Below the pieces are notes generated by a model that was not told where the DNA came from, made no database searches, and saw nothing but the letters and a program-made list of their open reading frames with translations. From positions 186,001 through 250,000 of the forward strand of contig JABABD010000005.1 in assembly GCA_014238425.1 (NCBI GenBank): DNA of 64,000 bases, in the 5' to 3' direction. Positions 1 through 60,314 of this stretch are shown here, piece by piece. Source of the DNA: Flavobacteriaceae bacterium (GTDB taxonomy: Bacteria; Bacteroidota; Bacteroidia; Flavobacteriales; Flavobacteriaceae). The first letter of the stretch is position 1. Every line of letters starts with the position of its first letter. Made by a program: the position numbers and the translations under genes.

Positions 1-563
1 AGTTTTTGTAATCCGCGATTGGATATACAAAGTGATTCGCTGAGCTTATCTAAAGAGACATATTGTTTAGATTTCAGTGCATTAATAGCGAAAGGTAATC
101 TTGAATCAAGATCGGTTAATTCAATTCTTTGAACTAGGAATAATTCTAGAGCAATAAATTTCTGCTCAATAGAAGTAAGCTCTTTTAACTGGCACTTGAT
201 TCTGCTCAGGTCACTCTCTGAAAAAAATATGTTTGGATCAGATAAAGAATCATGTAATTCTTGTGCAGGAATAGGGTTTAAGTAATAAAGGCCATAGCTA
301 TTGAATTGAACTGTCATGAATTTCATACCTATGTATGGTAGAAAAGCAACTGTACTGGCGCAAGATGCATACAAGGAATGTTCAGTTAAAGAATGATTGA
401 TATAAATATCTTTATCTAAAGACAATACAAGATTACTGGTAGCGTTAGGGAAAATGGCCGTAAAGCCATCAAAATGATCTTCTGAAGTAATTTCAACGTA
501 GCTGATGAAATTGATTATTTGTCTTAGTCCTTTATCTTTTGGGATGTATATCTTTTGAATCAT
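1..563 (-). CDS. AraC-type transcriptional regulator, C-terminus cut by window edge
   Basis: Open frame on the minus strand starting with ATG at 563 and running off the left edge, giving about 187 residues with no stop. It starts MIQKIYIPKDKGLRQII and the last visible part, around LDKLSESLCISNRGLQKL, looks like the first helix-turn-helix of an AraC/XylS DNA-binding domain. The first 150 or so residues would be the N-terminal sensing part, as in the flavobacterial regulators with an undefined N-terminal domain. The missing part would hold the second helix-turn-helix. A 60-bp repeat lies 42 bp upstream of the start, at the same distance as its second copy lies from the LuxR-type gene at 2631-3167. 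Family assignment is inferred from the partial helix-turn-helix, so it is moderately certain. Confidence 0.7.
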   Translation of the reverse strand, partial: MIQKIYIPKDKGLRQIINFISYVEITSEDHFDGFTAIFPNATSNLVLSLDKDIYINHSLTEHSLYASCASTVAFLPYIGMKFMTVQFNSYGLYYLNPIPAQELHDSLSDPNIFFSESDLSRIKCQLKELTSIEQKFIALELFLVQRIELTDLDSRLPFAINALKSKQYVSLDKLSESLCISNRGLQK

Positions 564-604
564 AAATCACCTAATAATTGTCACAACAAACATGATATGA
601 GTTG

Positions 605-664
605 TTTATATCAGCAGTTAAACGAAGTTCGACTTTTTATTTCAGTAAGTCAAGTTTAGTTTTG
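605..664. repeat. 60-bp direct repeat, copy A (relic of glycosyltransferase 3' end)
   Basis: Matches 3211-3270 at 58 of 60 positions by eye, and weaker similarity continues upstream to about 578. In the minus-strand direction, 664-637 reads as the last codons of the glycosyltransferase at 3243-4706 (KTKLDLLK followed by TAA), so this is a detached copy of that gene's 3' end plus its downstream spacer. The 2.5-kb segment between the two copies carries two accessory genes. Confidence 0.9.
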
Positions 665-817
665 AAGTTTCGTTTTACGGTCTTGTGTATTAAACGTAGT
701 GTTTTGACTACTGTTTTTTTAGATTTATGTTTTGTTTATTAAGTGTAAAGTTTTTCATTCTCTTTACTATTTTAGCTATGCTTTATACACGTTGTTGTAA
801 ATAGTTTTAACCCAATA
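664..817. other. Non-coding spacer after repeat copy A
   Basis: About 150 bp of AT-rich sequence with no ORF between the first 60-bp repeat copy and the metallopeptidase-like gene. It includes a motif (TTTACAACAACGTGTATAAA on the minus strand, 781-800) that I recall, without certainty, as recurrent in flavobacterial intergenic regions. Confidence 0.4.
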
Positions 818-2530
818 TTATTTCTTTACAATTTCCAAATCTTCTGTACCTTTTATTTTAGCTACTTCCCATCCTTCATTTAATTCTATTTCATAAAAAT
901 CTCCATAGATTTTATTTCCTTCTATTTTTGTTGGTAATGGAAACATGTAAGTTGTGGTTTCAATATTTTTAAGTTTTAATATACCTCCCTCTCCTAACTT
1001 ATCTTTTCCAGAAATGATATGAAAGTTTCCAAAATTTTCACCAGAAAGGTCAGTTCCCTTAGCTCCTGAATAAACAATCCCATAATCATCTAAAATTAAA
1101 GTCCCATTCATATTAAAGGACAGACTAAACTTTTTGTCTACCAAAATTGTTTTAAGTGTGGGCTGTGTGATCAATAAATTTGTGTAATAAGCAGTAAGTT
1201 TTTCAAATTCAATTTTTCTCTCTGCTTCTTCTTGGTTAATGTTCTTAAAATTATTTCTTTGTTTCGCTGCGAATATTGCGTTTTCGTCTGTTAGAATCGT
1301 GTTTTTTAAATACTGCTTTTCGTAGATCTCTAAAAAATTAAAAATCTTGTCTAATTCAAGTCTCCAATCCATTTTTAAATAATCAAATAATATTCCATAA
1401 GCAGGTCCTGTTGCATATGGAAAAGGTCTTGTATAGGTTTCAGCAGACTCTCTGTTATTGATTTCATTTATGGCGTACTGATACTTATTGGTTACGGTTG
1501 ATAGTTTAATTCCAGTATAATTTGCAAGTCCTTCAACTGTTTCTAATTCAATTTCTTCTTCTAAATAAGCACTATATTTTGCCTGTCTTATTTTTCTCAT
1601 TATCAAGGCATCATTAACATATGATGCCACAATAGTTGCATCTGCACTTTTATCAGCTTGATGTAAGGCATTTTTAAGTGCTTGATACTCTAGACGCATT
1701 AAGAGTCTTGCGTCAAATTTGTCTAAATACGGTATTGGATTAGCTCTTAAATTAGTATTGTCTGCAAGGTGTGCTAGATGAAAAAGTTCGTGAATAATCG
1801 TGGCACTGTTATCATTTATAGAATTAATCATTACTGTAGCATACTTGACTCCTCTGTAATCTTGAGTCGTATTTGTAAAGCTTAACTCATTTTCTTTAAA
1901 CTTTGTGTAATACAAAATAGAATCTTTTGTTTCACTACCTATAAGTTCTTCAAGACTGTAGATAGTTTTATCATAATCGATGACTAAAACTTTTGGATTC
2001 CATAAATTTATTTTCCACAATGAGCCATAGTCGGAAGTAAGAATTTCTTTTGCTTTAAAAAGTTCTTTTTTAATAGCTTTACGATTCCTCTCAGGTGCTG
2101 TATCTATATTTTGTTGCACGTTCTTTAATATATTATTCCATCTGCTAGAATACTTATGTAGTTCTTTTAAATCTGTATCAGATTTTATATGATCTAAATT
2201 TGAATAAAACTTTTCCTCTACAACATATTCTAGCCAATTTAATGCTTTCTTATGTTCGCCATTTAATGAGTAAGTACAAGCAGCATTATATATGCCATTA
2301 TTATAGATTAAATTTCCATTCTCTTCAAAAAATAAATCAAAATTTTTAGCTGAATTTTTATAATCTTTTGTTTCGTAATGTGCCATAGCAGCATTATAAA
2401 TACTATCCAGCAAAACTTCATCAACTTTCTTTTTTTGCATTACATCAGATGATTTATTTGTCCCAATATTATTGCAAGAGAATAAGAATAATGCACTGGT
2501 GAACAATAAAAATGTAATCAGGGTTTTCAT
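818..2530 (-). CDS. Putative gluzincin-type metallopeptidase lipoprotein with TPR-like N-terminus
   Basis: 570 residues. A lipoprotein signal is visible (LFLFSC, Cys19 as the lipidated residue), so the protein should be membrane anchored outside the cytoplasm. Residues about 40-135 resemble TPR helices (AMAHYETKDYKNSAKNF, then YNAACTYSLNGEHKKAL). A zinc-binding HELFH motif sits at 247-251 and a downstream ETVEGLANY segment offers Glu333 as a possible third ligand, the arrangement of gluzincins. The C-terminal 100 residues are beta-rich and may be a separate domain. I do not recognise a named family. It lies in a segment flanked by 60-bp direct repeats, next to a LuxR-type gene, and is probably acquired. 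Substrate unknown. Confidence 0.75.
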   Translation of the reverse strand: MKTLITFLLFTSALFLFSCNNIGTNKSSDVMQKKKVDEVLLDSIYNAAMAHYETKDYKNSAKNFDLFFEENGNLIYNNGIYNAACTYSLNGEHKKALNWLEYVVEEKFYSNLDHIKSDTDLKELHKYSSRWNNILKNVQQNIDTAPERNRKAIKKELFKAKEILTSDYGSLWKINLWNPKVLVIDYDKTIYSLEELIGSETKDSILYYTKFKENELSFTNTTQDYRGVKYATVMINSINDNSATIIHELFHLAHLADNTNLRANPIPYLDKFDARLLMRLEYQALKNALHQADKSADATIVASYVNDALIMRKIRQAKYSAYLEEEIELETVEGLANYTGIKLSTVTNKYQYAINEINNRESAETYTRPFPYATGPAYGILFDYLKMDWRLELDKIFNFLEIYEKQYLKNTILTDENAIFAAKQRNNFKNINQEEAERKIEFEKLTAYYTNLLITQPTLKTILVDKKFSLSFNMNGTLILDDYGIVYSGAKGTDLSGENFGNFHIISGKDKLGEGGILKLKNIETTTYMFPLPTKIEGNKIYGDFYEIELNEGWEVAKIKGTEDLEIVKK

Positions 2531-2630: not shown

Positions 2631-3167
2631 TTAAAAATAATTAAGATTAGTTTTAAGCTCTTTTCTTGATGAAATGTTTAATTTTCTATAAATATTGTTT
2701 ACATGTGTTTTTACAGTACTCATGCTAATACAAAGTTCTTCTGCGATTTGAAGATTTGTTTTATCTGAATTAATTAGCCTTACTATATTGAGTTCCTGTT
2801 TTGTTAACCTATTTTTAGAGCTACCTTTTTTTCTCTTAAAAAAATAGTAAATAGATAAGCCTATTATTCCAGCTATAAGTAGTATAATACCAAATAAGGC
2901 CCAACTATATAGCTTTTTGGTGCTTTTTGAATTGTCTATGCTAATTAATTGAAGAGAGTCTCCATTTTTAGTAATATTATAAGACCTTATATCTGAATTT
3001 TTAGTAGAATCTATATTTGTTGAAGCGTTTGAATCATTTATAATGATAGTATCTTGTTTCATTACCACAGTAAGCGATTCTTGTGATATAACAGAAAAAG
3101 GCATTAAAAGAACTACAAAAAGATATACTTTGTATATAATGTGTTTGACTAAAATTACCTTAATCAT
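2631..3167 (-). CDS. Membrane-tethered LuxR-type (GerE helix-turn-helix) regulator
   Basis: 178 residues. Order of parts: an N-terminal signal or anchor sequence (about 1-28, ending near VISQ), an extracytoplasmic stretch of about 55 residues, one transmembrane helix (about 87-109, WALFGIILLIAGIIGLSIYY) followed by positive residues, and a C-terminal LuxR/GerE helix-turn-helix (about 118-175: LTKQELNIVRLI, then STVKTHVNNIYRKL). Flavobacterial proteins of this layout usually have TPRs in the N-terminal part; here it is short and has none, so it could be a trimmed member. The topology implies that a signal outside the inner membrane reaches a DNA-binding domain inside. It precedes the peptidase-like gene by 100 bp on the same strand and may control or sense it. 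Confidence 0.75.
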   Translation of the reverse strand: MIKVILVKHIIYKVYLFVVLLMPFSVISQESLTVVMKQDTIIINDSNASTNIDSTKNSDIRSYNITKNGDSLQLISIDNSKSTKKLYSWALFGIILLIAGIIGLSIYYFFKRKKGSSKNRLTKQELNIVRLINSDKTNLQIAEELCISMSTVKTHVNNIYRKLNISSRKELKTNLNYF

Positions 3168-3210: not shown

Positions 3211-3270
3211 TTTATATCAACAGTTAAACGAAGTTCGACTTTTTATTTAAGTAAGTCAAGTTTAGTTTTG
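3211..3270. repeat. 60-bp direct repeat, copy B (intact 3' end of glycosyltransferase)
   Basis: Partner of 605-664. It includes the last nine codons and stop of the glycosyltransferase at 3243-4706 plus 32 bp of downstream spacer. Two differences from copy A are visible, one of them in the codon before the stop (TTA AAA here, against CTG AAA in the relic). Confidence 0.9.
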
Positions 3271-4706
3271 TGATGGATTCTTATAATATCCCAAAAGAAA
3301 ACTCCATAAATGATTACATACTCCAAACCAATGATCCAGAGGTTTTCCGACTTGTCAGCTTTGTCAATATTGATATAAGCTAAATAACTCAAAATAATGA
3401 CAAAACTCCACACTAGCGGAAACTTATAATTCGTAAAGATTGAAAGCAGCAATAATGTGGCCACATACCAAGGATGTACTGTTGTTGCTGTAAAGAAATA
3501 GAAGGATAATACTAATAACATAGCCGACATGAGTTGAGGCATATTTTTATTTCTTCTGATAAATGTCATTAACAATACAAGCCCAACAACTATAAGAGGA
3601 ATGTACTTCCCAATAATGGCAATCTCATTATAACCTCTAAAAGTGTAGCCTATCTCGCGAGCGATGTAATACAAACTCGCATTAAACTCAAAATTCTGGA
3701 ACCAAAGCCCAACCGTTTCAGCGTAATTAGTTACGAATTTTGGAGAATAAAAAGGTGAAAAAAGAAGCATAGTAACGAAACCAACAATAGCATAAAACCC
3801 AATTAGCTTAGTCATTCTAAATATTAGTGAAGAATGTATTACTTGAGATTTCTCGACTCCGCTCGAAAGGACAGTATCATTTTCTCTGTTAATCATTGTG
3901 TCGCCCCGAGCGGAGTCGAGAGGTTTTTTCGAAACGAACCACTGAAAAAACAACGGTAAAAATATCAATGGAATTAATTTAACTGAAACCGACAAGGCAA
4001 ATAAAACAGCTGCCCATTGCCATTTTCCTTTATGAAGCACATACATACTCCAAATCAAGAAGAAAATCATCACTCCTTCAAAATGAAGATTACCAGTCAA
4101 TTCAATAATAATAAATGGATTTAGGATATACCAGAAAATACGATTTACAGGAATATTGAGTCGCTCTAATAGCTTTTTTCCGAAGTAAAGGGTACCAATA
4201 TCTGCAGCAATAATGAGTATACGCATCACAACAGCAGAACCCAAAATACTCTTTCCGGAAAATAGGCCAGCAATGACAAAACAAAGTTGATTAATAGGTG
4301 GATAATTGGTGTAATGACTTGCATTAAGAGCACCCATCCCGGCATATAATTCTTGAGCTTGATTTATTGGAAGTTCATTATTTATTAGAAAAGATTCAAC
4401 AGTATATAAATAAGGATTGAATCCTTCTATAATCATACGGCCGTCCCATATAAAACGATAGAAATCCTGAGATAGATTCGGCGTAGCAAGAAGTAATACT
4501 AGCCTGAAAAGTATAGCAATACCGATCAAGAACCTAAAATCATGTTTCTTGATCTGTATCAGTTTGTAAAACAAGAAAAACAAAGCCGTATATAGGCTAA
4601 CAAGCTTAATGTAGTCCGTCCTAACTAGGTCGTAAGCAAAAACAGCATAAAAAATGATGCTTAGTAATGAAAGCATCAATGGTATTCTGTTAATTTTAGA
4701 TAGCAT
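3243..4706 (-). CDS. Polytopic membrane glycosyltransferase (mannosyltransferase-like, GT-C)
   Basis: 487 residues, about a dozen hydrophobic helices, with an early acidic loop (LSQDFYRFIWDGRMI, about 78-92) typical of GT-C enzymes that use polyprenyl-phosphate sugars. It is the last gene of a compact operon and its start overlaps the stop of the GT2 gene upstream by one base. A likely role is adding a sugar to a lipid-linked or extracytoplasmic acceptor; donor and acceptor cannot be read from the sequence. Residues about 262-285 are encoded by a palindromic element inserted in frame (see 3851-3921), which adds a charged loop between two membrane segments. Whether that loop is tolerated is unknown, but the frame is intact from start to stop. 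The 3' end is duplicated at 605-664. Confidence 0.8.
   Translation of the reverse strand: MLSKINRIPLMLSLLSIIFYAVFAYDLVRTDYIKLVSLYTALFFLFYKLIQIKKHDFRFLIGIAILFRLVLLLATPNLSQDFYRFIWDGRMIIEGFNPYLYTVESFLINNELPINQAQELYAGMGALNASHYTNYPPINQLCFVIAGLFSGKSILGSAVVMRILIIAADIGTLYFGKKLLERLNIPVNRIFWYILNPFIIIELTGNLHFEGVMIFFLIWSMYVLHKGKWQWAAVLFALSVSVKLIPLIFLPLFFQWFVSKKPLDSARGDTMINRENDTVLSSGVEKSQVIHSSLIFRMTKLIGFYAIVGFVTMLLFSPFYSPKFVTNYAETVGLWFQNFEFNASLYYIAREIGYTFRGYNEIAIIGKYIPLIVVGLVLLMTFIRRNKNMPQLMSAMLLVLSFYFFTATTVHPWYVATLLLLSIFTNYKFPLVWSFVIILSYLAYINIDKADKSENLWIIGLEYVIIYGVFFWDIIRIHHKTKLDLLK
3851..3921. repeat. Palindromic (REP-like) element inserted in frame in a glycosyltransferase gene
   Basis: Two perfect 15-bp arms, TCTCGACTCCGCTCG at 3851-3865 and its reverse complement at 3907-3921, separated by 41 bp. 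The G+C-rich arms contrast with the AT-rich gene around them. The element is read through as about 24 extra residues (PLDSARGDT, then SSGVEKS) without a stop or frame change. Arms of this kind recur as dispersed repeats in flavobacterial genomes as far as I recall. Confidence 0.85.
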
Positions 4707-6202: not shown

Positions 6203-6891
6203 TTTTTGAAACTGTATTTAAAAATCCAACTTAAGATTTTCACGCCTGCAAATATAGCACCTTTTACCGTTCCAGAAACTTTTGACACACCAATTCTGTT
6301 ACGATAATTAACAGGGATTTCTGTATATGTCATTTTTTTCTTTAAGACTTTTAATTGCATTTCTACTGTCCAGCCATACGTTTTGTCTTCCATATTTAGA
6401 GCTAACAACTTATCATATTTTATGGCTCTAAATGGCCCAAGATCACTGAATTTAGCACGAAAGAACAATCGCATTAATGATGTTGCTAACCAATTGCCAA
6501 ATATTTGCGGAAACGTCATAGATCCTTCTTCACGTAGTCGTTTTACTCTAGCACCAATTACAAAATCTAAGCCTTCATTTATTATTGGAGACACAATTTT
6601 TGTCAATTCTTCTGGATAATCACTATAATCACCATCCAAGAAAACGATAATATCTGGTTTTTCATCTTGAGAGGCTATATGCTCCATACCCTTTAAACAG
6701 GCATAACCATAACCTCTTCTGGTTTCAGAAAGCACAGTGGCACCAGCTTTCTTTGCATTGAGTTCAGTATCGTCAGTTGAATTGTTACTTACTACAATGA
6801 CTTCGTCAGTTATGTTAGGGATATCGTTTACGACATGCACAATAGAATCTGCTTCGTTATAAGCAGGAATGATGACTTTTATTTTGGTCAT
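6199..6891 (-). CDS. GT2 family glycosyltransferase (dolichyl-phosphate-sugar-synthase-like)
   Basis: 230 residues with no clear membrane anchor apart from a mildly hydrophobic C-terminus. The GT-A fold is shown by VIIPAYNEADSI at the start, VSNNSTDDT, and VFLDGDYSDYP with its DxD metal site near residue 87. Proteins of this size and motif set often make polyprenyl-phosphate sugars, which fits the neighbouring GT-C gene that would need such a donor (inference). Its start overlaps the stop of the MORN-type gene by four bases and its stop overlaps the next GT2 gene by four bases. Confidence 0.85.
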   Translation of the reverse strand: MTKIKVIIPAYNEADSIVHVVNDIPNITDEVIVVSNNSTDDTELNAKKAGATVLSETRRGYGYACLKGMEHIASQDEKPDIIVFLDGDYSDYPEELTKIVSPIINEGLDFVIGARVKRLREEGSMTFPQIFGNWLATSLMRLFFRAKFSDLGPFRAIKYDKLLALNMEDKTYGWTVEMQLKVLKKKMTYTEIPVNYRNRIGVSKVSGTVKGAIFAGVKILSWIFKYSFKK

Positions 6892-7790
6892 TGAAGATCC
6901 GATAGTTTATTTTCTTTTTTAAAGGATTTGAGGTCGGTCCATTCCTTTAATTTTTTTCCAGCACTGTATTTTTCTGCCTTAATGAGTTTTTTGTTTTCAT
7001 ATCTTAAACAATACCCGTTTTTTTGATTGTTTTTTAACTGACATTTGTGATTTATCACTTCCATGTCATCATAAAACAACCACCATTTGCTCTTTAAGCC
7101 ATTTACATAGTGGCCTTCACTTTTCTTAGTGCCGTCTTGGCGATAAAAATGCCAATAATCTGAAGGTTTTCCTAATTTTATATTCCCGGATTTTTCTAAT
7201 TTACCGTTTTTATGATAGAATTTCCAGTAGCCATTTTGTAAACCATCGTTAAAGTTTCCTTCATTTTTCAATTTACCATTTTTGTAGTATGCTTTCCAAT
7301 ACCTTGAAGGTTTTCCTTTATTTAGTGCGCCTTCATTTTTTAATTTTCCGTTATTGAAATATACTTTGGAATAACCAGATTGCTTTCCATCTATATAATT
7401 CCCTTCTTGTTTTAAAGAACCATTTTCATGATAATGCTTCCAATGATTGGCTTCTTTATCGTTATCGTAATAGCCTTCTTTTTTAAGCTTTTCATTGTTG
7501 GAATAGTAACTCCAAAAACCTGTTTTTTTTCCCTCTTGAAAGCGTCCAATAGCTTTAAGAGTCTTGTCATTGTAGTAGAAATTCCAATACCCCGTTTCTT
7601 TATTATTAATGAATTCCCCTGTTTTTTTAAGAGTTCCATCATGATGATAAAATTTCCAGTAATCTGTTTTTTGATTGTTTTCTTGCCACCCTTCTTCTTT
7701 TATAGTGCCGTTGTCAAAATAATTTTTTTGATAGGCCTTTTGTGCTGCTACTGCAGTGCTCAAAAAACAAATAAGGATAAATAATCTCAT
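6888..7790 (-). CDS. MORN-variant (YwqK-type) repeat protein, secreted
   Basis: 300 residues. An N-terminal signal peptide (about 1-17, ending AVAAQ) is followed by about ten tandem repeats of 23-24 residues with the pattern YYxNGKLKxEGxFxxGxxxGYWKFY. These are MORN-variant repeats, often annotated as YwqK-family antitoxin; no toxin partner is visible here and the name should not be taken as function. It sits inside the redox and glycosyltransferase operon with a one-base overlap to the polyferredoxin gene upstream and a four-base overlap downstream. A structural or binding role in the periplasm is plausible. Confidence 0.85.
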   Translation of the reverse strand: MRLFILICFLSTAVAAQKAYQKNYFDNGTIKEEGWQENNQKTDYWKFYHHDGTLKKTGEFINNKETGYWNFYYNDKTLKAIGRFQEGKKTGFWSYYSNNEKLKKEGYYDNDKEANHWKHYHENGSLKQEGNYIDGKQSGYSKVYFNNGKLKNEGALNKGKPSRYWKAYYKNGKLKNEGNFNDGLQNGYWKFYHKNGKLEKSGNIKLGKPSDYWHFYRQDGTKKSEGHYVNGLKSKWWLFYDDMEVINHKCQLKNNQKNGYCLRYENKKLIKAEKYSAGKKLKEWTDLKSFKKENKLSDLQ

Positions 7791-11766: not shown

Positions 11767-12666
11767 ATGAAAAAGACAATTATTTCAACATTTGCATTGC
11801 TAATTACTTTAGCAAGCTTTGCTCAAGATGATGATCAGCCAGTAAAAAGTAATATCCAAGAGTATACGCCTTCAAAACTTCTAAGTAAAGGGCAATGGGA
11901 CATTAAATGGTTTAATAATTTATACACCCAAACTGAAAGTACTTTTAGTGAAGGGAAAGAGCCTAGACAAACATTTTTCACTTCAACAATTGATGTGTTT
12001 ACAGGAGTTTCTGAAAACAGTACATTTAATGTTGGATTGTTATTAGAATTTAGATCTAATGTTATTGGCAACAGAAGTGCATTTGATGTGTTTTCTTTTG
12101 ATGGAGAATCAGGGACAGCACGTTCTGGGTTTACATCGTTTGCTCCAGCTGTAAAGTTTAACCCAATTAAGAGTGTTAGCAATTTTACAATTCAATCGGC
12201 ATTTCATATTCCGTTGGTAGATCAGGAAACAGATGGCGGCGTGTTTTTAGATCAAAAAGGATTTATTTTTCAGAATCGTTTTTTCTATGATTACACTTTT
12301 CCAAGTGGTGATTGGCAGTTATTTACTGAGCTCAATGCAGAGTATAACTTTGGAAAAAAAACCGTACAAGATTCTAATTTCGATACCATTGAAGGAAGTT
12401 TCGCTAACAATAGTTTAAGCCTTACGCCAGGCGTGTTTTTAAGCTATTTCCCTAGTCAAAAATTCACTGTTCTGGCATTAGTACAGCATTCACAACGTAT
12501 TGATACGGGAAATGATTTCGAACAGGATTTTACAGCAGTAGGTGGAGGCGCGAAGTATCAATTAAACGATGTGTTGAACATTGAAGCTTTATATACCAAC
12601 TTTGTTAGAGGGAATAATACAGGTTTAGGGCAAACGTTTAACATAGGCTTGAGAGCTTTATTTTAA
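11767..12666 (+). CDS. Outer-membrane beta-barrel protein (transporter-like)
   Basis: 299 residues from the ATG at 11767, chosen because it opens a clean signal peptide (MKKTIISTFALLITLASFAQ); the frame is open further upstream but overlaps the DUF547 gene and lacks a signal. The mature part alternates polar and hydrophobic residues, with many aromatic residues and a C-terminus ending in Phe (GLRALF), the usual beta-barrel sorting signal. No named family is certain; it resembles the MetA-like phenol-pathway barrel group. Its stop overlaps the next start (TAATG), so 11767-14674 looks like one operon. Confidence 0.75.
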   Translation: MKKTIISTFALLITLASFAQDDDQPVKSNIQEYTPSKLLSKGQWDIKWFNNLYTQTESTFSEGKEPRQTFFTSTIDVFTGVSENSTFNVGLLLEFRSNVIGNRSAFDVFSFDGESGTARSGFTSFAPAVKFNPIKSVSNFTIQSAFHIPLVDQETDGGVFLDQKGFIFQNRFFYDYTFPSGDWQLFTELNAEYNFGKKTVQDSNFDTIEGSFANNSLSLTPGVFLSYFPSQKFTVLALVQHSQRIDTGNDFEQDFTAVGGGAKYQLNDVLNIEALYTNFVRGNNTGLGQTFNIGLRALF

Positions 12667-13409
12667 TGATCATTAAATTAAGTCGCTACGTATATATATT
12701 TGTACTATCATTAACGATAGTGTCATGTTCTAATAAAGAGAATGTACTCAGTGATGATAGTTTATCAACGTATTTAAAAAGTAGGGTTTTTGAAACAGGG
12801 GCTGTTATAACTTGTGCAGCCAGTGCTGAGAATGCAAATGATGTTTTAGTGTTTTATTATGCTGAAATAGGTGCTTCAAATATAAGGTTGTACGAATCAC
12901 TTGATATGGAAATAAACCCTAATGAGTTTTTAAATTATACTATTGTTGAAGTCGAACCTACACCATTTTTTAATGGTTATCTTGGAAAATTCACTAGAGA
13001 CATAGCCTCGGAGAAATGGATTATTGTAACGTATGAGCTCAATAATGATGTTAAAGTTTCTAATCCTATCCGAACGAAACAATTTACCAAGCCATCAATT
13101 TGGTCAGATGCAGTGAATATAGATTATACAGCAGCATTGATGCCAAGATTCAATTGGACAAATAATGCTTTTGGAGGCAATGCTATATATTTTCAAGTGA
13201 TTTCGGATACAGAAGATAATTTGCTTTCAGGCACATATACGTTTGAAAATGAATTTCAGTATTATAATACTTCCAATGTGGTGTTGAACATTACTACAGA
13301 AACCCCACCAAATTTATTGGTAGGAAATCTGTATAAGTTCACGCTTATGGATGTAAGTGAAGATAATTGGGTAAATACCATCATCCAAAAAACCTTTGTG
13401 GCGCAATGA
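12666..13409 (+). CDS. Hypothetical lipoprotein
   Basis: 247 residues with a lipoprotein signal (SLTIVSC, Cys21). The rest is acidic and beta-rich with no motif I recognise. It is translationally coupled on both sides: start in the TAATG overlap with the barrel protein, stop in the ATGA overlap with the Omp85-like gene. The position between two outer-membrane barrels suggests a surface or periplasmic partner (inference). Confidence 0.75.
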   Translation: MIIKLSRYVYIFVLSLTIVSCSNKENVLSDDSLSTYLKSRVFETGAVITCAASAENANDVLVFYYAEIGASNIRLYESLDMEINPNEFLNYTIVEVEPTPFFNGYLGKFTRDIASEKWIIVTYELNNDVKVSNPIRTKQFTKPSIWSDAVNIDYTAALMPRFNWTNNAFGGNAIYFQVISDTEDNLLSGTYTFENEFQYYNTSNVVLNITTETPPNLLVGNLYKFTLMDVSEDNWVNTIIQKTFVAQ

Positions 13410-14674
13410 AACATATGCTATATTTATTTCTATGCGTTACTTTTTTTACAAACTTTACATTTGCTCAAGAATCTGTTGTATCTGAATTGAAAATAGAAGG
13501 GAATGAAAAAACAAAATCTTCTTTTTTAAAACGATTAACACTAGTTAAATCTGGAAGCATTCTAGATTCTACAGCTATTGAAGCAGATATTAGACGTTTA
13601 AAGCTGTTGCCTTCTGTAGCAAATGCGACTTATATAGTAACTTCTGTTACACAAAACAGCTATGATGTTATTTATAGTATAGATGAAAACTTCACTATCA
13701 TTCCAGGTCTTAATATATCTACAGCGAATAACGGAGAATTTGCATTTCGAGCATCTATATTCGAGTTCAATTTATTCGGAAGAAATCAGCTAATAGGTGG
13801 GTTTTATCGTCGCGATGTGTTTAATTCTTTTGGTGCCTTTTGGGAAGCTCCATATATATTTACACGTAAATTAGGTATTGGACTAAATTATCAAAATTTA
13901 GTGTCCCAAGAGCCTGTTTTCTTTGAAAATGATAATACTGTTAATTATAAGTTCGATAGCAAGGCTTTTGAAATATACTTTCAGTACGAATATAATTTTC
14001 ATAACCGCTTTGAACTTGGTATAAACGTATCTAAAGAAGATTATAACTTTATAGAAGGGAATTTACCAAACGGAACCCCAAATCAATTAGATGCTAATAA
14101 AATTGCTTTAATTGGTGAGTATGAATACAATACTATCAATATTGACTATCAGTACAAATCAGGATTTAGGAGTTTGTTGAACTTTAGACTTGTAACTGGA
14201 GGTAACGACTTTCTGAAAAACACATTTATTGGACGCAATGATTTCGAGTATTTTAGGCGTATTGGCCTAAAAGGAAATTGGGCAAATCGATTACGTTTAG
14301 CCTTTGCTTCTAATGATAATACACCTTTCGCCCCTTTTGCGGTGGATAATCAGCTTAACATTAGAGGTACAGGAAATACTATTGATAGAGGCACTGCAGC
14401 TATTGTTATTAATACAGAATACAGGCACACATTATACGAAAAAGGTTGGTTTGTTGTGCAAGGTAACGCGTTTATAGATGCAGGGTCTTGGAGAAACCCA
14501 GGAGGAAACCTGAAAGGGTTGATAGATGGTAGTACCATTAGGTTTTATCCAGGTTTAGGATTTAGATTTATTCATAAAAAAATATTCAATGCTGTTTTCA
14601 GATTAGATTATGGTTATGGCATAGGGAATGATGCTACTAATGGAATTGTTTTTGGTATTGGACAATATTTTTGA
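13406..14674 (+). CDS. Omp85-like outer-membrane protein with one POTRA domain (copy 1)
   Basis: 422 residues from the ATG at 13406, which overlaps the previous stop (ATGA) and opens a signal peptide ending TFAQ. Residues about 20-100 form one POTRA-like domain (VVSELKIEGNEKTKSSFLKR, then IRRLKLLPSVANATY). The remainder is a beta-barrel with an NIRGTGN segment matching the conserved (V/I)RG loop of Omp85 proteins, and it ends in Phe (GIGQYF). BamA has five POTRAs and TamA three, so this is a reduced member. The next gene is a close paralogue, 35 bp away. Likely cargo: a lipoprotein or surface protein from the same operon (inference). Confidence 0.83.
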   Translation: MKHMLYLFLCVTFFTNFTFAQESVVSELKIEGNEKTKSSFLKRLTLVKSGSILDSTAIEADIRRLKLLPSVANATYIVTSVTQNSYDVIYSIDENFTIIPGLNISTANNGEFAFRASIFEFNLFGRNQLIGGFYRRDVFNSFGAFWEAPYIFTRKLGIGLNYQNLVSQEPVFFENDNTVNYKFDSKAFEIYFQYEYNFHNRFELGINVSKEDYNFIEGNLPNGTPNQLDANKIALIGEYEYNTINIDYQYKSGFRSLLNFRLVTGGNDFLKNTFIGRNDFEYFRRIGLKGNWANRLRLAFASNDNTPFAPFAVDNQLNIRGTGNTIDRGTAAIVINTEYRHTLYEKGWFVVQGNAFIDAGSWRNPGGNLKGLIDGSTIRFYPGLGFRFIHKKIFNAVFRLDYGYGIGNDATNGIVFGIGQYF

Positions 14675-14709
14675 ATATAAAGCATTAATTTTAAGATAAT
14701 CTATATATA

Positions 14710-15972
14710 ATGCTGAGAAATAAACTCATCTTTTTTTTGATATTCACTTGTTTTTACTCCTTAGCGCAAGATGCTATAGTAGAAGATCTTAAGGTGCAAG
14801 GCAATAAAAAACTAAAGACATCTTTTGTTAAAAAATTGTCGTCTATTAAAGCTGGTGTCACTCTAGATTCTTTGTTAATTGAAGAAGATATTAAACGCTT
14901 AAAACGCCTGCCATCTGTAGCGCATGCTTACTATCAAATCTTTTTATCCCATGATAATAGATATAATGTATTTTATAATATAGAAGAGAATTTTACCATT
15001 ATACCATCCGCAAGCTTGTATACTACAAATGATGACGAATTTGCGTATCGTGTAGGACTTTATGAGTTTAATTTATTGGGACAAGGTGTAACCTTTGGAG
15101 GATTTTATCAAAAGGATATCTATGATTCTTATGGTATTAACCTGAGAGCACCTTATCTATTCAGTAAGAAGGCTGGTTTAACCATCAACTATCAAGATTT
15201 AACCACTCAAGAACCAGTTTTTTTTAATAATACCACAGCAGATTATAAGTATAATAATAAATCGTTTGAGGTGTTAGGTTTGTATGAATTTGATTTTCAT
15301 AATCGACTAGAACTCGGAATCAATTATTTTACAGAGAATTACGACTATAAATCTGGAGCTACTAGCCCTGATGTGCCTCAGGACCTTAGTGTCAAGAAAC
15401 TTCTTTACAAAGGAATTTATGAGTACAATAACCTAGATTATTATTATCAATATGTTTCTGGTTTCAAGAGCACTTTCAATTTTCAATATGTCACAAGTAG
15501 GGATGAAACTTTACCAGAATTCTTGATAGGGTGGAATGACTTTTCATATTTTAAGAGAATAGGGCAAAAAGGCAATTGGGCAACACGATTAAGATTGGGG
15601 ATCTCTACAAATAACGACTCTCCTTTCGCGCCATTTTCGGTAGATAATAATTTGAATGTCAGGGGTGTTGGTAATATTATTGATCGCGGTACTGCAGCTA
15701 TTGTCCTTAATACAGAATATAGACATACACTTTATGAGAAAGGTTGGTTCACTCTGCAGGGCAATGCTTTTGTCGATGCTGGATCTTGGAGGAATCCAGG
15801 AGGTGATTTCGGCGATTTTAGTGATTCACAAAATATAAGGATTTATCCAGGTTTAGGGTTGCGATTCATACATAAGCGTATTTTTAATGCTATTTTTAGA
15901 ATTGATTATGGATATGGTATCACACAAGATGCAACTAGCGGATTGGTATTTGGTATAGGTCAATATTTTTAA
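14710..15972 (+). CDS. Omp85-like outer-membrane protein with one POTRA domain (copy 2)
   Basis: 420 residues. Signal peptide (about 1-19, ending SLAQ), one POTRA-like domain (VEDLKVQGNKKLKTSFVKK, RLPSVAHAYY) and a barrel with NVRGVGN and a GIGQYF end identical to that of copy 1. The two proteins align along their whole length with long matching blocks near the C-terminus (DRGTAAIV, NTEYRHTLYEKGW). This is a tandem duplication whose copies have diverged, mostly in the loops, which suggests different cargo or surface exposure. It may be read from the upstream promoter because the gap is only 35 bp. Confidence 0.83.
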   Translation: MLRNKLIFFLIFTCFYSLAQDAIVEDLKVQGNKKLKTSFVKKLSSIKAGVTLDSLLIEEDIKRLKRLPSVAHAYYQIFLSHDNRYNVFYNIEENFTIIPSASLYTTNDDEFAYRVGLYEFNLLGQGVTFGGFYQKDIYDSYGINLRAPYLFSKKAGLTINYQDLTTQEPVFFNNTTADYKYNNKSFEVLGLYEFDFHNRLELGINYFTENYDYKSGATSPDVPQDLSVKKLLYKGIYEYNNLDYYYQYVSGFKSTFNFQYVTSRDETLPEFLIGWNDFSYFKRIGQKGNWATRLRLGISTNNDSPFAPFSVDNNLNVRGVGNIIDRGTAAIVLNTEYRHTLYEKGWFTLQGNAFVDAGSWRNPGGDFGDFSDSQNIRIYPGLGLRFIHKRIFNAIFRIDYGYGITQDATSGLVFGIGQYF

Positions 15973-21560: not shown

Positions 21561-22091
21561 TTGAAACAGCTAACCGACGAAGAGTTAATGCATGATGTTG
21601 CAGGAGGCAATTTGGATGCTATGACCTTTATTTTTGAACGCTATCATTTGAGAATATACAATTTTCTCTATCAAATGTTAAGAGATAAAGATGTAGCAGA
21701 GGATATCACTCAAAATGTATTTTATAAAGCTATTCGTTACCGATCATCGTATAAAGGAGGTCAGTTTGTGTCTTGGATTTTTAAGATAGCCAGAAATTTG
21801 TTGTCTAGTCATTACCAAGAAAAGCAGCGTTCATTCAACAATATAAAAGTTGATGATTTGAGCGAAGAGATTGAAATCAATAAGCGCGATAGCACAGAAG
21901 ATATTGCGCATTTGCATAGTGTTTTAAAGACATTAAAAGAGGAAGATCGTGAATTGATCATTATGAATAGATTACAAGGCATGAAGTATGACGCGATCGC
22001 AGTGATTACGAACAGTACAGAAGGTGCTGTAAAAGTGAAGGTGCATAGAATAATAAAAAAATTAAGAACGGTATATTTTGAAACTACTTAG
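21561..22091 (+). CDS. ECF-type RNA polymerase sigma factor
   Basis: 176 residues. Region 2 is visible as FIFERYHLRIYNFLY, then DVAEDITQNVFYKAIR; region 4 as LIIMNRLQGMKYDAIA and TEGAVKVKVHRIIKK. The start is TTG at 21561: the conserved N-terminus MKQLTDEELMHDVAGG needs it, and the first in-frame ATG would remove nine residues. An unusual start in a short regulatory gene may keep expression low. It is followed after two bases by an anti-sigma factor gene and then two DUF4097-like genes, forming one operon that the sigma factor may activate itself. Confidence 0.9.
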   Translation: MKQLTDEELMHDVAGGNLDAMTFIFERYHLRIYNFLYQMLRDKDVAEDITQNVFYKAIRYRSSYKGGQFVSWIFKIARNLLSSHYQEKQRSFNNIKVDDLSEEIEINKRDSTEDIAHLHSVLKTLKEEDRELIIMNRLQGMKYDAIAVITNSTEGAVKVKVHRIIKKLRTVYFETT

Positions 22092-22093
22092 TT

Positions 22094-22882
22094 ATGAACT
22101 GTAAAGACATAGAGATTAAAATAATAGACTTTATTGATAAGCAATTGTCAGAAAGTGAATCGAAGCTAATGCAAGAACATATTGATTCGTGTATTTCTTG
22201 TAAGGCTAATTATGAAGAAACAATGGTTTTGATGGGCGCTTTTAAAAATGAAGAGCAGATAACCCCAAGTGATGATTTAAGAAAGAACTTTTTGAACCAA
22301 TTGGATGAAGAAAAACAGTTACAACAGACGCAGGTAGTTCAATTAAATCAAGCACCTAGTTTTAACTGGAAACAAGCGTTTCAAATTGCCGCCTCTTTCT
22401 TGCTGCTATTTTTAGGCTTCTTTGCTGGTAATTATACATCAAAGCAGAAAGCTTCAGAAGAAATAGCCGTGCTACAAGAACAAACTATAGAATTAAAAGA
22501 AAATATGATGCTTGCCATGATGGATAACCGATCTGCAAGCAAGCGTATTCAAGGTGTACAATACTTAGATGAATTTTCTAATCCAGATGAAACCATCGTA
22601 AAAGCTTTAGTCGCCAGAATGTTGCTTGATGAGAATACAAATGTTCGTTTAACCGCCGTAAATGCTTTGCAAGCATTCATAGCATCTGAAACTGTTAAAA
22701 ACGGATTTGTAAAGGCATTGGGAACAGAAAAGGATCCAGGTATCCAGATAACAATTATCCAAGCATTAGTGAAGATTCAAGAGAAGAAAGCGTTGTTGCC
22801 TATGCAACGGTTATTGGAAAATAATGAAACGCAACTTTTTGTAAAAGAAGAAATCAAATCAACTATATCAAATATCATTTAA
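22094..22882 (+). CDS. Anti-sigma factor with zinc-finger head and HEAT-repeat tail
   Basis: 262 residues. The N-terminal HxxxCxxC zinc-binding motif of ZAS/zf-HC2 anti-sigma factors is present (His29, Cys33, Cys36), a single membrane helix lies near residues 93-110 (AASFLLLFLGFFAG), and the part outside the membrane has HEAT-like repeats (about 145-260: PDETIVKALVARMLLDENTN, VRLTAVNALQAF). It should hold the ECF sigma factor encoded two bases upstream at the membrane. The HEAT part is the probable sensor or scaffold and may bind the DUF4097-like products of the same operon (inference). Confidence 0.87.
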   Translation: MNCKDIEIKIIDFIDKQLSESESKLMQEHIDSCISCKANYEETMVLMGAFKNEEQITPSDDLRKNFLNQLDEEKQLQQTQVVQLNQAPSFNWKQAFQIAASFLLLFLGFFAGNYTSKQKASEEIAVLQEQTIELKENMMLAMMDNRSASKRIQGVQYLDEFSNPDETIVKALVARMLLDENTNVRLTAVNALQAFIASETVKNGFVKALGTEKDPGIQITIIQALVKIQEKKALLPMQRLLENNETQLFVKEEIKSTISNII

Positions 22883-22901
22883 AATCAAAAAACGAATAGT
22901 C

Positions 22902-23651
22902 ATGAAAAAAACAAGAATCCTTTATGTAGTGCTGTTGTTTGTCTTAACGGCAAGTGCACAAGAATATACGCATTCTCTTCAAGATGTGGAATGGGTAAAA
23001 ATTGAATCGAGAACCGATGTCATCGTAAAAACCCATAGCAATAATGAACTACACATAACCGGAGGAATTAAGTATCAAGTCCCAGAACGAGCCAAGGGCC
23101 TTAAGTTGGTTGGTGAAGAAGGAAAAGATAACACCGACGTTGGTTTTTATGTGATCAAGGAAGGAAGTACATTAATTGTCAAAAATCTTCGGAGATCCAA
23201 AAAAGCAGAAATTTACTTACCAGCTTCACAAAACATTTCTGTAACTACAAATTGGAATGGTGGAATCAAGATAGATGGTTTTAAAGGAGAAGTCGAAGCG
23301 AATTCTAGGTTGAACGGAAGTGTTGTAATAGAGAACGTTAGTGGCCCTTTAACTGCAAACTCTTTAAACGGACAAATTGATGTCGTTTTCTCTAAAGTGA
23401 GCCAAGAATCTCCCATTACAATATACTCTACTAATGGGGCTCTAGATATTGCTATGCAAGGAAATACGCCTGCAGACTTAGTGCTTAGCTCAATAAACGG
23501 CGCTATTTATACCGATTTTGAATTGAAGCTGCCAGAAAAAAAGGGACTTAAACCTATTGCAGCTAAAAAGGTTAAAGGTGTCATTAATAATGGAGGTGTT
23601 GATATTCGATTAAGTACTACAAACGGTAACATTTATTTAAGAAAACAATAA
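22902..23651 (+). CDS. DUF4097-like beta-repeat protein, secreted (copy 1)
   Basis: 249 residues. Signal peptide about 1-19 ending TASAQ, followed by a right-handed beta-solenoid made of short repeats of the form ...GxVxANSxNGxI (GEVEANSRLNGSVVIENV, GPLTANSLNGQIDVVF). This is the DUF4097 type of putative adhesin fold. It lies 19 bp downstream of the anti-sigma factor and 18 bp upstream of a related gene. Such proteins often belong to envelope-stress or cell-surface regulons run by ECF sigma factors. Confidence 0.8.
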   Translation: MKKTRILYVVLLFVLTASAQEYTHSLQDVEWVKIESRTDVIVKTHSNNELHITGGIKYQVPERAKGLKLVGEEGKDNTDVGFYVIKEGSTLIVKNLRRSKKAEIYLPASQNISVTTNWNGGIKIDGFKGEVEANSRLNGSVVIENVSGPLTANSLNGQIDVVFSKVSQESPITIYSTNGALDIAMQGNTPADLVLSSINGAIYTDFELKLPEKKGLKPIAAKKVKGVINNGGVDIRLSTTNGNIYLRKQ

Positions 23652-23669
23652 TCAAGAAAAACGAATATT

Positions 23670-24540: not shown

Positions 24541-24589
24541 TTTACTCTTTCATGCAGTACTTTCGTTAATCTTCTGTTAAAAACATTAT

Positions 24590-24634: not shown

Positions 24635-24652
24635 AAACTTAATAATTTTGCT

Positions 24653-34410: not shown

Positions 34411-34417
34411 AAGAATG

Positions 34418-58060: not shown

Positions 58061-58073
58061 ATTGCAAAAACAC

Positions 58074-58155: not shown

Positions 58156-59250
58156 ATGAGCCAATCGGCTAAATCATTATCACAATTAGCGCTCCAGAAG
58201 TTCAAAAAGAACGTTTGGGGCGTTTTCAGTTTTTGGTTCATTATATTAATTGGCTTAGTATCTGTATTTGCCTACACTTTAGCACCGGACAACTCACAGT
58301 ATGCTAATCAAATGCATTTGTCAATACATTCAAAACCGCCTGGCTATAAAGTGTTAATGCTCACTATTCCATCGGAAATTGATACAGAACAATCATTTTT
58401 TGATAAACTGTTCTTCGGAAAGCAAAGCGGAGATACAGAAATTCCGATTATAGAGCATGTATTAGAAGCAAACAAACTCAGGTATACTGAATATACCGCG
58501 GATGGATTAGAAGGCATTACAAAAACTATAAATGCGGATTTCATTATTAATAGCCCTTCAAAAGAATTTATCAAAGAAAGAACTTTTGTCTTTGGAACAG
58601 ATAAATACGGTAGAGATTTATTAAGTCGTGTTTTGGTAGGTGCTAGAATATCTTTTTTTATAGGATTTATTGCCGTTTTTATCTCCTTAGTGATAGGTAT
58701 TTTTATGGGAAGCTTAGCGGGATACTTTGGCGGTAAAGTGGATGCTTTTATTATGTGGATTATTAATGTCACCTGGTCCATTCCCACGCTGTTGTTAGTT
58801 ATAGCCATTACAATAGCATTAGGTAAAGGATTTTGGCAAGTGTTTATTGCGGTTGGGTTGACTATGTGGGTTGAGGTTGCTAGGGTGGTGAGAGGACAAA
58901 TACTTAGTGTTAAAGAAATGCAGTATGTTACAGCAGCAAGAGCATTAGGATATACAGATTTTAGAATCATAACCAAGCATATCTTGCCTAACATTATGGC
59001 ACCAGTCATTGTTATTTCAGCAGCAAACTTTGCAGCTGCTATATTGATAGAAAGCGGACTTAGTTTTTTAGGTATAGGAGCACAACCACCAATGGCGAGT
59101 TGGGGAGCTATGATAAAAGATCATTATAGTTATATTATTCTTGGAAAGCCTTATCTGGCCTTAATTCCTGGGCTTTGTATTATGAGTCTTGTGATGGCGT
59201 TTATGCTAATTGGAAACGCGTTGAGAGATGCTTTGGATGTGAAGAGTTAA
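58156..59250 (+). CDS. ABC transporter permease (DppC/OppC-like)
   Basis: 364 residues. One N-terminal helix (about 20-40), a periplasmic insertion of about 100 residues, then the binding-protein-dependent permease core with five helices. The EAA-type loop is visible (AARALGYTDFRIITKHILPN). No substrate-binding protein, second permease or ATPase lies nearby, so partners must be elsewhere. Peptide import is the usual role of this group. The 3' end is duplicated at 60249-60314. Confidence 0.9.
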   Translation: MSQSAKSLSQLALQKFKKNVWGVFSFWFIILIGLVSVFAYTLAPDNSQYANQMHLSIHSKPPGYKVLMLTIPSEIDTEQSFFDKLFFGKQSGDTEIPIIEHVLEANKLRYTEYTADGLEGITKTINADFIINSPSKEFIKERTFVFGTDKYGRDLLSRVLVGARISFFIGFIAVFISLVIGIFMGSLAGYFGGKVDAFIMWIINVTWSIPTLLLVIAITIALGKGFWQVFIAVGLTMWVEVARVVRGQILSVKEMQYVTAARALGYTDFRIITKHILPNIMAPVIVISAANFAAAILIESGLSFLGIGAQPPMASWGAMIKDHYSYIILGKPYLALIPGLCIMSLVMAFMLIGNALRDALDVKS

Positions 59251-59253
59251 TTT

Positions 59254-60132
59254 TTATGACTCGTTGAAATGCCACATTAATAAGTGGCTTATTTTATTAC
59301 CTTGAGTCATTTTAATGGTCTGATGTGTCGCTTTTAATTTATGTAATTGTTTGTAGAAAGTGTTTAAGTGTTCTTTTCTAGATACAAGTGTCGTGAAGAC
59401 CCCTACTTGTGTTTTGTATGACGTACTTTGTTTCATCATACGCTTTATGAACAATGCTTCGCCACCATTACACCATAATTCATTAGATTGACCGTTAAAG
59501 TTTCGTTTTAATTCCGCAATGGTTTTATCAGGGTTTAAATTTTTTATTTTTTGAAACGCCACCTTATTGGCTTCTTCTTCTGAAGCATAGAAAGGAGGAT
59601 TACACATTGTGAAATGGAAATAGTCGTCTTTTAAGATAATGCCTTCAAATATATGAGCATTTGTTTTTTGATGTCGTATCTCAATATGCTGCTTTAAAGT
59701 TTCATTGGTTTTTACGTTTTGAGTAGCAGCTTCAACGGCTTTAGAATCAATATCAGCACCTACCATATACCATTCAAACAAACAAGCTCCTAAAATTGGA
59801 TAAATGCAATTCGCACCAACACCAATATCTAGACCTTTCAACTGAGAAGGCTGCTTGTCGTATACATTTTCTAATAAGTCGTTTATATATAAAAGATAAT
59901 CAACTCTTCCAGGAATAGCAGGGCATAAATAGTTTTCAGGGATAGTGTAATCTTCAAGCTTATAATGGTGTAGCAATAAGGCTTTATTTAGTTCAAATAC
60001 AGCCACATTATCAGAAAAATCAATAGTTGAAGTGTTAAATTTATTTATAAACGTATGATGCTTAAGTTCAGGATTAGCAATAGTTAGGGCAGGAAGATCA
60101 TATCCATTAATATGTGGGTTTTTAGGATGCAA
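59254..60132 (-). CDS. rlmF: 23S rRNA (adenine1618-N6)-methyltransferase
   Basis: 292 residues. The class I methyltransferase features are KGLDIGVGANCIYPI (SAM site) and the MCNPPFYAS motif (NPPF catalytic motif of N6-adenine methyltransferases). Start MHPKNPHINGYDLPALTIANPEL fits RlmF. It methylates A1618 of 23S rRNA. It is convergent with the permease and lies between the permease 3' end and its relic, so it may be an inserted gene at this site (inference). Confidence 0.92.
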   Translation of the reverse strand: MHPKNPHINGYDLPALTIANPELKHHTFINKFNTSTIDFSDNVAVFELNKALLLHHYKLEDYTIPENYLCPAIPGRVDYLLYINDLLENVYDKQPSQLKGLDIGVGANCIYPILGACLFEWYMVGADIDSKAVEAATQNVKTNETLKQHIEIRHQKTNAHIFEGIILKDDYFHFTMCNPPFYASEEEANKVAFQKIKNLNPDKTIAELKRNFNGQSNELWCNGGEALFIKRMMKQSTSYKTQVGVFTTLVSRKEHLNTFYKQLHKLKATHQTIKMTQGNKISHLLMWHFNES

Positions 60133-60248
60133 GAATATTAAGATTTTGTAGGCAAGATAGGGCTAATCAAATCAATTACCATTCATTAATTCTATTGCTG
60201 TCTAATCTAATAAAGATGAATAGTGATAGGATGCCTGAACTTCTATAA

Positions 60249-60314
60249 CCTTGTATTAAGAGTTTGGTAATGGCTTTTATGTTTATAGGTGACGCCCTAG
60301 ATGTGAAGAGTTGA
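60249..60314 (+). pseudogene. Relic of the DppC-like permease 3' end
   Basis: Reads CIKSLVMAFMFIGDALDVKS then a TGA stop, against CIMSLVMAFMLIGNALRDALDVKS at the end of the permease (58156-59250). One internal deletion of 12 bases is present and the reading frame is kept. Weaker similarity may extend upstream to about 60222. It is on the same strand as the permease gene, 1 kb downstream. Confidence 0.85.

Follow-up and report, generated by a model that had tools for sequence, protein, structure and literature searches.

Accessory genes between duplicated gene ends

The stretch of DNA described here, 64,000 nucleotides of contig C40 from a 3.75-Mb Flavobacteriaceae genome (G000), is referred to as the window. 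At four places in the window, the 3′-end of a resident gene is present twice, once as the intact end and once as a diverged copy, called here the relic, which lies beyond one or more interposed genes (Table 1). The residents are a glycosyltransferase-like gene (site 1), arsM (site 2), a tRNA-Phe gene (site 3), and an oppC-type permease gene (site 4). These repeats had been pointed out in an earlier note on this DNA, and alignment of the copies confirmed all four of them at the positions reported there. The main result concerns site 3, where the interposed gene, coding for a small GIY-YIG nuclease, is a member of a large Bacteroidota family of tRNA-anchored nuclease genes.

Table 1. Positions of the resident genes, duplicated gene ends, and interposed genes at the four sites of the window (aa, amino acids)
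Site	Feature	Position	Strand	Basis
1	Membrane glycosyltransferase-like gene, resident	3243–4706	−	Alg6_Alg8/GT87, just below Pfam cut-offs
1	Intact 3′-end of the resident gene	3211–3270	−	58/60 identical to 605–664
1	Gene-end relic, between two cassettes	605–664	−	Alignment
1	LuxR-type regulator, insert	2631–3167	−	PF00196, E 1e-15
1	570-aa protein, insert	818–2530	−	No Pfam match; NCBIfam TPR end-of-group domain, E 2e-8
2	arsM, resident	28115–29086	−	NCBIfam AsSugarArsM, E 1e-174
2	Intact 3′-end of arsM	28115–28195	−	About 81% identical to 24462–24540
2	arsM end relic, between two cassettes	24462–24540	−	Alignment
2	BlaI/M56 cassette of five genes, insert	24653–28037	+	PF03965, PF05569; other three genes without Pfam match
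2	Second arsM-end cassette: sigma-70 factor, zf-HC2/HEAT protein, DUF4097 protein, weakly LiaG-like protein	21561–24383	+	Family searches
3	Intact tRNA-Phe (GAA), resident	34459–34532	−	ARAGORN; Rfam RF00005, 71.3 bits
3	Intact 3′-end of tRNA-Phe with terminator, repeat copy 1	34418–34471	−	53/54 identical to 34041–34094
3	GIY-YIG nuclease gene, 95 aa	34123–34410	−	Pfam PF01541, E 8e-13 on longer frame
3	16-nt palindrome CCCCGAAGCTTCGGGG in place of the T-loop of the relic tRNA	34095–34110	.	Read from alignment
3	Relic 3′-end of tRNA-Phe with terminator, repeat copy 2	34041–34094	−	Alignment
4	oppC-type permease gene, resident	58156–59250	+	PF00528, PF12911
4	Intact 3′-end of oppC	59173–59250	+	Alignment
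4	rlmF, insert	59254–60132	−	NCBIfam RlmF, E 1e-107
4	oppC end relic, contiguous with HlyD as in the empty sites	60249–60314	+	Alignment with L017 and L039
4	HlyD-type gene, native neighbour, 3′-end facing oppC	60320–61615	−	PF13437

The copies of site 1 are 97% identical, with a weaker similarity that extends to about 561/3158, and those of site 2 align over 79 columns with two indels. Site 4 is weak, since its 66-nt copy aligns only with gaps (0.66 identity over 73 columns, score 40). An unguided repeat search of the window recovered sites 1, 2, and 3 and missed site 4.

A widespread family of tRNA-anchored GIY-YIG genes

At site 3, the relic does not end at the palindrome that replaces its T-loop, as the copy resumes beyond it with a few more tRNA bases. 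The reading frame of the nuclease (34123–34491) takes in tRNA sequence, and the gene start is likely to be at 34410. The gene is free-standing outside the tRNA and does not lie inside an intron or an intein, and the only Rfam match in the window was the tRNA itself. Over 27 aligned sequences, Y6, Y17, G19, T41, E65, and K69 are invariant, and R27 and H31 are nearly so; of these, Y6, Y17, G19, E65, R27, and H31 are taken as active-site residues. The structure model of the protein (pLDDT 93.8) gave its best Foldseek match with the UPF0213 protein 1ZG2 (BH0048; E 2.9e-4, TM about 0.54), followed by Slx1 at E 0.02 and above. With the window protein, no relative was found in the phage collection at E 1e-3. 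Other relatives of the gene in the same genome lie beside tRNA-Asn (L084) and tRNA-His (L085), and those in two further genomes of the genus lie beside tRNA-Phe, Arg, Pro, Val, and His.

Searches with the window protein in the family Flavobacteriaceae gave matches in 58 of 149 genomes, and searches of the phylum Bacteroidota with a 27-sequence profile gave matches in 159 of 247 genomes (E ≤ 1e-8), with up to 21 copies. The genomic contexts were collected from 36 family loci obtained by the searches together with 60 fetched regions, and from 29 automatically chosen phylum loci together with 39 of 40 regions fetched from a longer list, the fortieth being a misplaced 700-bp piece. Nine listed places of the family, all with E above 5e-4, were left out, one of which belongs to the window's own genome (L087) and has no tRNA nearby. 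Genes were accepted at E ≤ 1e-5 over at least 60 profile positions, and the duplicate loci L372, L382, and L373 were dropped, which left 216 genes in 155 loci.

These genes code for GIY-YIG nucleases of about 80–95 aa, and on their far side lies a partial tRNA copy that often ends in a palindrome. A tRNA gene was found within 400 bp of 142 of the 216 genes, and all 142 were on the same strand as the tRNA, compared with 62 of 20,000 random 260-bp intervals in the control, where the strands agreed in 35 of 62 cases. Direct repeats with a score of at least 40 flanked 76 of 116 and 82 of 97 testable genes (together 158 of 213, superseding the 81 of 125 obtained with a looser gene set), whereas among random intervals of the family loci 8 of 790 were so flanked. 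One or the other, a nearby tRNA or flanking repeats, was present for 197 genes. The tRNAs carry sixteen labels, namely Arg, Pro, Asn, Ser, Val, Met, Asp, Ala, Phe, His, Gly, Leu, Lys, Thr, and two odd tRNA-like calls. Genes within 100 bp of a tRNA are placed in one of two ways, 67 following the tRNA terminator and 36 lying just before the tRNA. At least two nuclease genes are present in 39 of the 155 loci, partly through the choice of loci. At L389, L391, L394, L396, and L397 (genomes G369, G379, G329, and G314), up to seven nuclease units follow one another in tandem, at nearly constant periods of about 320–450 bp.

Partial tRNA copies, hairpins, and empty tRNA-Phe loci

Within 120 bp of a tRNA lie 106 of the genes, 7 of them without a copy at the repeat threshold. 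When a copy of the tRNA itself was sought on the far side by a stricter test, it was found for 91 genes, and 89 of these 91 copies were partial. The break points recur among relics of one isotype: the tRNA-Asn relics break at position 50 in L115, L117, L125, L130, and L360 and at position 14 in L084, L114, and L116, several tRNA-Arg relics break at 22, four of nine tRNA-Val relics at 45–47, and the tRNA-Phe relics of L098 and L099 at 61. At the truncated edge, a palindromic stem of at least 7 was present in 43 of the 89 partial relics versus 25 of 445 control zones (p 2e-21). Many of these palindromes have the form TCCCGA...TCGGGA, while others read GTCACGC...GCGTGAC or CCTGCC...GGCAGG. Judged by eye, a hairpin-like insert, perfect or not, sits at the same T-loop break in all six tRNA-Phe elements, which include those of G055, G039, G137, and G314; for G137 the reading was made together with the repeat search, and the G039 gene falls below the threshold of the context set.

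One of the palindromes, CCCGATAGCTATCGGG, occurs three times in the window's genome (L110, C40 positions 73561–73576; L109 on C22; L108 on C9). Its settings are a tRNA-Asn relic, the loop of an apparent tRNA-Asp terminator hairpin, and a position before a short open reading frame that is ribosomal-protein-like by eye; the palindrome looks like a hairpin inserting into hairpin loops. The single-palindrome pattern CCCGAWRGCTWYCGGG fails to catch the shorter palindrome of the window.

The earlier note had proposed to look for empty sites in relatives, and such sites were found for tRNA-Phe. Among the 30 best coaX loci, taken from 144 genomes with a match, tRNA-Phe lies beside coaX in all 30, and the nuclease gene is present in 2 (G000 and G002). 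Of the 28 loci without it, 25 are clean, L312 ends 9 nt after the tRNA, L320 has a relic that by eye bears a hairpin, and L323 has a relic without one. In G137 (L113, contig C1), three tandem units, each consisting of a relic tRNA-Phe 3′ half, a hairpin, and a terminator, occur without a nuclease and are followed by a nuclease gene and then a further copy; this triple run is possibly a non-autonomous form.

Nuclease lineages follow the tRNA isotype

The tree of the nucleases was built from 118 sequences, one per locus, over 81 columns; 60 of its 115 inner branches are open and many forks are weak. On this tree the isotype label changes 30 times, compared with a mean of 86.9 and a minimum of 80 in 200 shuffles, while the host family changes 35 times (shuffled mean 44.8, minimum 40). 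Considering these two counts, the nuclease lineages follow the tRNA isotype more than the host. Within the family of the window alone, the isotype changes 18 times versus 50.1. The median pN/pS ratio is 0.25–0.37 in six isotype groups (pairs of 60–97% identity, only two pairs for Phe), and the nuclease genes are under purifying selection.

The same observations bear on the alternative that the GIY-YIG genes are passengers at tolerant tRNA loci, the tRNA fragments having arisen by unrelated slippage or tandem duplication. Tandem arrays do exist, although the fraction of loci with several genes is in part a matter of locus choice, and relics without any nuclease gene (L320, L323, and the run of three in L113) would also be expected of such fragments. 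However, passengers would not account for the agreement of strands in 142 of 142 cases, for lineages that follow the isotype across host families, for the identical break point in six of six tRNA-Phe elements, or for purifying selection on the nuclease, and six other GIY-YIG loci scanned in the window's own genome (L087, L089, L090, L091, L096, and L097) have no tRNA within about 1.5 kb. We therefore regard this alternative as unlikely.

Rarity of gene-end copies and the empty oppC site

To compare the window with other DNA, a uniform test was applied, in which the last 75 nt of a gene plus 30 nt were searched for an intergenic, same-strand, non-paralogous copy at most 5 kb downstream with a score of at least 38. 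Such copies were found for 3 of 51 genes in the window and for 1 of 1,532 elsewhere (Fisher p = 1.2e-4), the latter comprising 400 kb sampled from the same genome (0 of 255), 80 other oppC loci (1 of 1,093), and relatives of the glycosyltransferase and arsM loci (0 of 184). Against the own-genome sample alone, the difference gave p = 0.004. Both p-values are optimistic, because the window was picked after its repeats had been noticed. In the search for further 3′-end repeats in the genome, suggested beforehand as a check, the frequency in the window was above background. A looser version of the test detected one extra 3′-end copy in the own genome, at L296, which was dropped by the stricter filter; there (positions 11774–14953, contig C22) a second copy of the 3′-end of a gene coding for 308 aa lies about 2.2 kb downstream, where another gene starts.

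Despite its weak alignment, the duplication at site 4 is real. Empty sites were found in two of the 80 oppC loci of relatives (L017 and L039), in which the 3′-end of the HlyD-type gene abuts that of oppC and the two matches end 3 bp apart. In the DNA alignment, both oppC-end copies of the window map onto the single end present in these two loci, and the relic runs straight on into HlyD. Since oppC abuts HlyD without rlmF in both relatives, the relic is, as judged from these alignments, the native oppC/HlyD junction and rlmF is the newcomer. Furthermore, the relic agrees with most orthologues at two silent positions (T in 75 of 80, G in 53 of 80), while the bases of the intact end occur in 5 and 1 orthologues, respectively, suggesting that the present intact oppC end also came in from outside. 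Over all differing columns, the orthologues favour the intact end (586 vs. 359 for the relic). The rlmF gene is accessory, having a match in 54 of 100 genomes including its own, some of them weak, and its best identity outside is 59%. At a score of at least 40, flanking repeats were absent from all 29 other rlmF loci (the locus of the window reaches 42), and the idea of rlmF as a serial inserter at gene ends was rejected.

If sites 1, 2, and 4 were chance resemblances or decayed ordinary tandem duplications, unrelated to the inserts, a copy as weak as that of site 4 taken alone would cause no surprise, and neither would a cluster of repeats in a window selected by eye. We consider this very improbable in view of the frequency of such copies in the window relative to other loci and the near identity of the copies at site 1, and at site 4 the collinearity of the relic with HlyD in two relatives, that is, the empty site, already disfavours it.

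Stacked cassettes at the glycosyltransferase-like gene and arsM

The glycosyltransferase-like gene of site 1 has matches in 116 of 149 genomes. In relatives, only a short gap (about 0.4 kb in G007 and 1.2 kb in G002) separates it from a pseudouridine-synthase-like gene, named by eye, and in the window this gap is filled by two genes (305 and 275 aa), the relic, the gene for the 570-aa protein, and the LuxR-type gene. The description of the insert as a peptidase and LuxR-type pair holds for the LuxR-type regulator and finds no support for the peptidase, as the only match of the 570-aa protein above the cut-off is the TPR-type one of NCBIfam. The arrangement of site 2 is similar. In G143, 118 bp separate the end of a PHO4 gene from that of arsM, and in the window the four-gene cassette, the relic, and the BlaI cassette intervene. 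At both sites, two cassettes are stacked at the 3′-end of one gene with the relic separating them. No older relic was found beyond the first cassette of either site (best scores 26 and 24).

Within the BlaI cassette, TTCTA...TAGAA-like boxes are repeated before the genes (24575–24637, 26131–26198, and 27423–27495) and are probably the operators of the cassette. In addition, 27113–27310 and 27819–28016 are paralogous stretches of two adjoining genes.

No recombinase or nuclease was recognised in the genes searched in the inserts of sites 1, 2, and 4, a search that did not extend to the 305- and 275-aa genes of site 1. No pair of insert ends among these three sites shared a motif reaching a score of 28; the sole pair of termini above this score was the right end of site 2 with the left end of site 3, at 29. 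These results have to be weighed against the possibility that all four sites were formed by a site-specific, integrase-type process, the inserts being non-autonomous islets with attL and attR at the gene 3′-ends and with the recombinase acting in trans or lost. The 3′-ends of genes and tRNAs are classic attachment sites, and in the accretion of cis-mobilisable elements a relic lies between the stacked elements, just as it does at sites 1 and 2. Nevertheless, such a process appears quite unlikely here: the searched insert genes hold no recombinase, the insert ends of sites 1, 2, and 4 share nothing at the reporting score, the first cassettes have no older relic beyond them, and site 3 has a nuclease belonging to a family that follows the tRNA isotype.

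Proposed origin of the duplicated ends

The view of the earlier note, in which gene ends received accessory DNA and a displaced end stayed behind, agrees with the empty site at oppC, the empty tRNA-Phe loci, and the frequency of the repeats above background. Its second part, a single mechanism for all four sites, we rejected, as site 3 shows the signature of a tRNA-specific nuclease family and the other sites lack it. The duplicated gene end is a single signature that different processes can produce. We consider it probable that at least two of them acted in the window: a Bacteroidota-wide, tRNA-anchored GIY-YIG family likely spread by cutting of the tRNA gene and copy-in repair at site 3, and cassettes likely recombined at the resident 3′-ends at sites 1, 2, and 4.

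According to the proposed scheme for site 3, the nuclease would cut an element-free tRNA gene in a loop, in the case of tRNA-Phe the T-loop. One of the broken ends would then copy the 3′ half of the donor's tRNA, the terminator, and the nuclease gene, while the far end would be rejoined to the displaced half of the host's own tRNA, with a hairpin at the junction. By this rejoining the host tRNA would stay whole and a relic would be left behind. Later recombination between the repeats may expand or collapse the arrays. For sites 1, 2, and 4, the likely route of entry of the accessory cassettes is recombination with the 3′-end of the resident gene as anchor; incoming DNA carrying the same gene end would have recombined there and been joined illegitimately just inside that end. 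Its uptake by transformation is possible, and the presence of comEC in the window is no evidence for it.

Several observations weigh against this interpretation. Cutting, transfer, and insertion at site 3 were inferred rather than observed; loop cleavage, copying-in, and rejoining were deduced from the cutting of tRNA genes by the phage enzyme SegB and from the tRNA-Phe relics, which break inside GAATCGAAC, the T-loop sequence read on the other strand. Both tRNA copies often carry host-specific bases (e.g. GTACCAC or GCACCAC), so the copying model needs later gene conversion. The intact tRNA-Phe beside the nuclease gene has an ordinary sequence, and the scheme does not account for the carrier's escape from cutting. 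No stem of at least 7 was found in the tested zone of 46 of the 89 partial relics, 19 of the 216 genes have neither a nearby tRNA nor flanking repeats, and some of the phylum loci were selected by hand so that arrays would be included. The six tRNAs of the tRNA-proximity control all came from its own-genome pieces, none being present in the 80 oppC loci; for the own-genome pieces by themselves, which supplied one fifth of the draws, the rate would be about 1.5%. A donor with the resident gene end beside the insert was not found for sites 1, 2, or 4; specifically, no rlmF match at E ≤ 1e-20 was present in the 80 oppC loci (up to 10 kb on each side). Alignment of the relics with orthologues, which had been proposed for recognising the native copy, identified the native junction at site 4 through L017 and L039, but overall similarity did not help: none of 80 oppC orthologues resembled the site 4 relic more than the intact end, and none of 29 orthologues resembled the site 2 relic more; both counts are as expected of decaying relics, and neither proves which copy entered.

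A further proposal, which we put forward tentatively, is that the family may represent a minimal chromosomal mobile element, made up of a single nuclease gene of about 85 aa and a hairpin-closed half tRNA. Each lineage would live on one tRNA, rebuild the tRNA that it breaks, and amplify in tandem, while derivatives lacking the nuclease, such as those after tRNA-Phe in G145 and the triple run of G137, would be moved in trans. In this view, the half tRNA with its hairpin would be the working end of the element and not a dead relic.

Comparison with known systems

The closest parallel is SegB of the T-even phages, a free-standing GIY-YIG homing endonuclease that cuts in tRNA genes with a preference for RAWTSGAAC and drives a tandem amplification that needs phage recombination genes (PMC13096335). 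The two systems share a GIY-YIG enzyme beside tRNA genes of many isotypes and the tandem amplification of a nuclease-tRNA segment, and the T-loop sequence in which the tRNA-Phe relics are broken fits the motif preferred by SegB. In contrast to SegB, which is phage-borne, the Bacteroidota genes are chromosomal, have as their boundary a partial tRNA, often with a palindrome, and form isotype-following lineages. The likeness to SegB is one of description, and the search of the phage collection gave no match to the window protein at E 1e-3. The stand-alone GIY-YIG proteins of the UPF0213/YhbQ type share the size and, as the 1ZG2 match indicates, the fold of the window nuclease. They are not known to have a tRNA linkage, and no publication on this subject was recognised by title among the matches listed.

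In fungal mitochondrial genomes rich in homing endonucleases, truncated gene copies occur near intact genes; tandem duplication is suggested there rather than tRNA targeting, and the portion of the article available mentions no palindrome at the relic (PMC4162613). With integrative and cis-mobilisable elements at gene 3′-ends, the sites of the window share the direct repeats of gene ends around accessory DNA and the stacking, but differ in having no integrase among the insert genes searched, related elements elsewhere being outside that search. REP/RAYT palindromic repeats resemble the family in being short dispersed palindromes, as is CCCGATAGCTATCGGG, and differ in that the palindromes of the window's nuclease family are located in tRNA-relic loops next to a GIY-YIG gene.

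Both the enzyme fold and the concept of nucleases acting at tRNA genes are known already, whereas the chromosomal isotype-following lineages, the hairpin-bearing half tRNAs, and the tandem arrays were not met in the open-access literature among the matches listed. Judged by title and the start of the abstract, no report on chromosomal tRNA-linked GIY-YIG genes was among these matches from open-access PMC articles, with subscription journals and preprints outside the search, so that absence from print is unproven. The tRNA genes are known mainly as docking sites of integrases. If the proposed scheme is true, a nuclease-only strategy that breaks and rebuilds specific tRNA genes would account for many of the small “GIY-YIG family” genes and tRNA fragments in Bacteroidota and would be a chromosomal counterpart of phage SegB. 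It would also provide nucleases specific for individual tRNAs, with the break points of the relics serving as a map of where they likely cut.

Other repeats in the window

Two further repetitive regions were seen in the window. A coding repeat array with a period of 72 bp occupies 7114–7661 within the gene at 6888–7790, and two adjoining paralogous genes lie at 13367–15972, with 72–76% identity over 281 and 136 bp.

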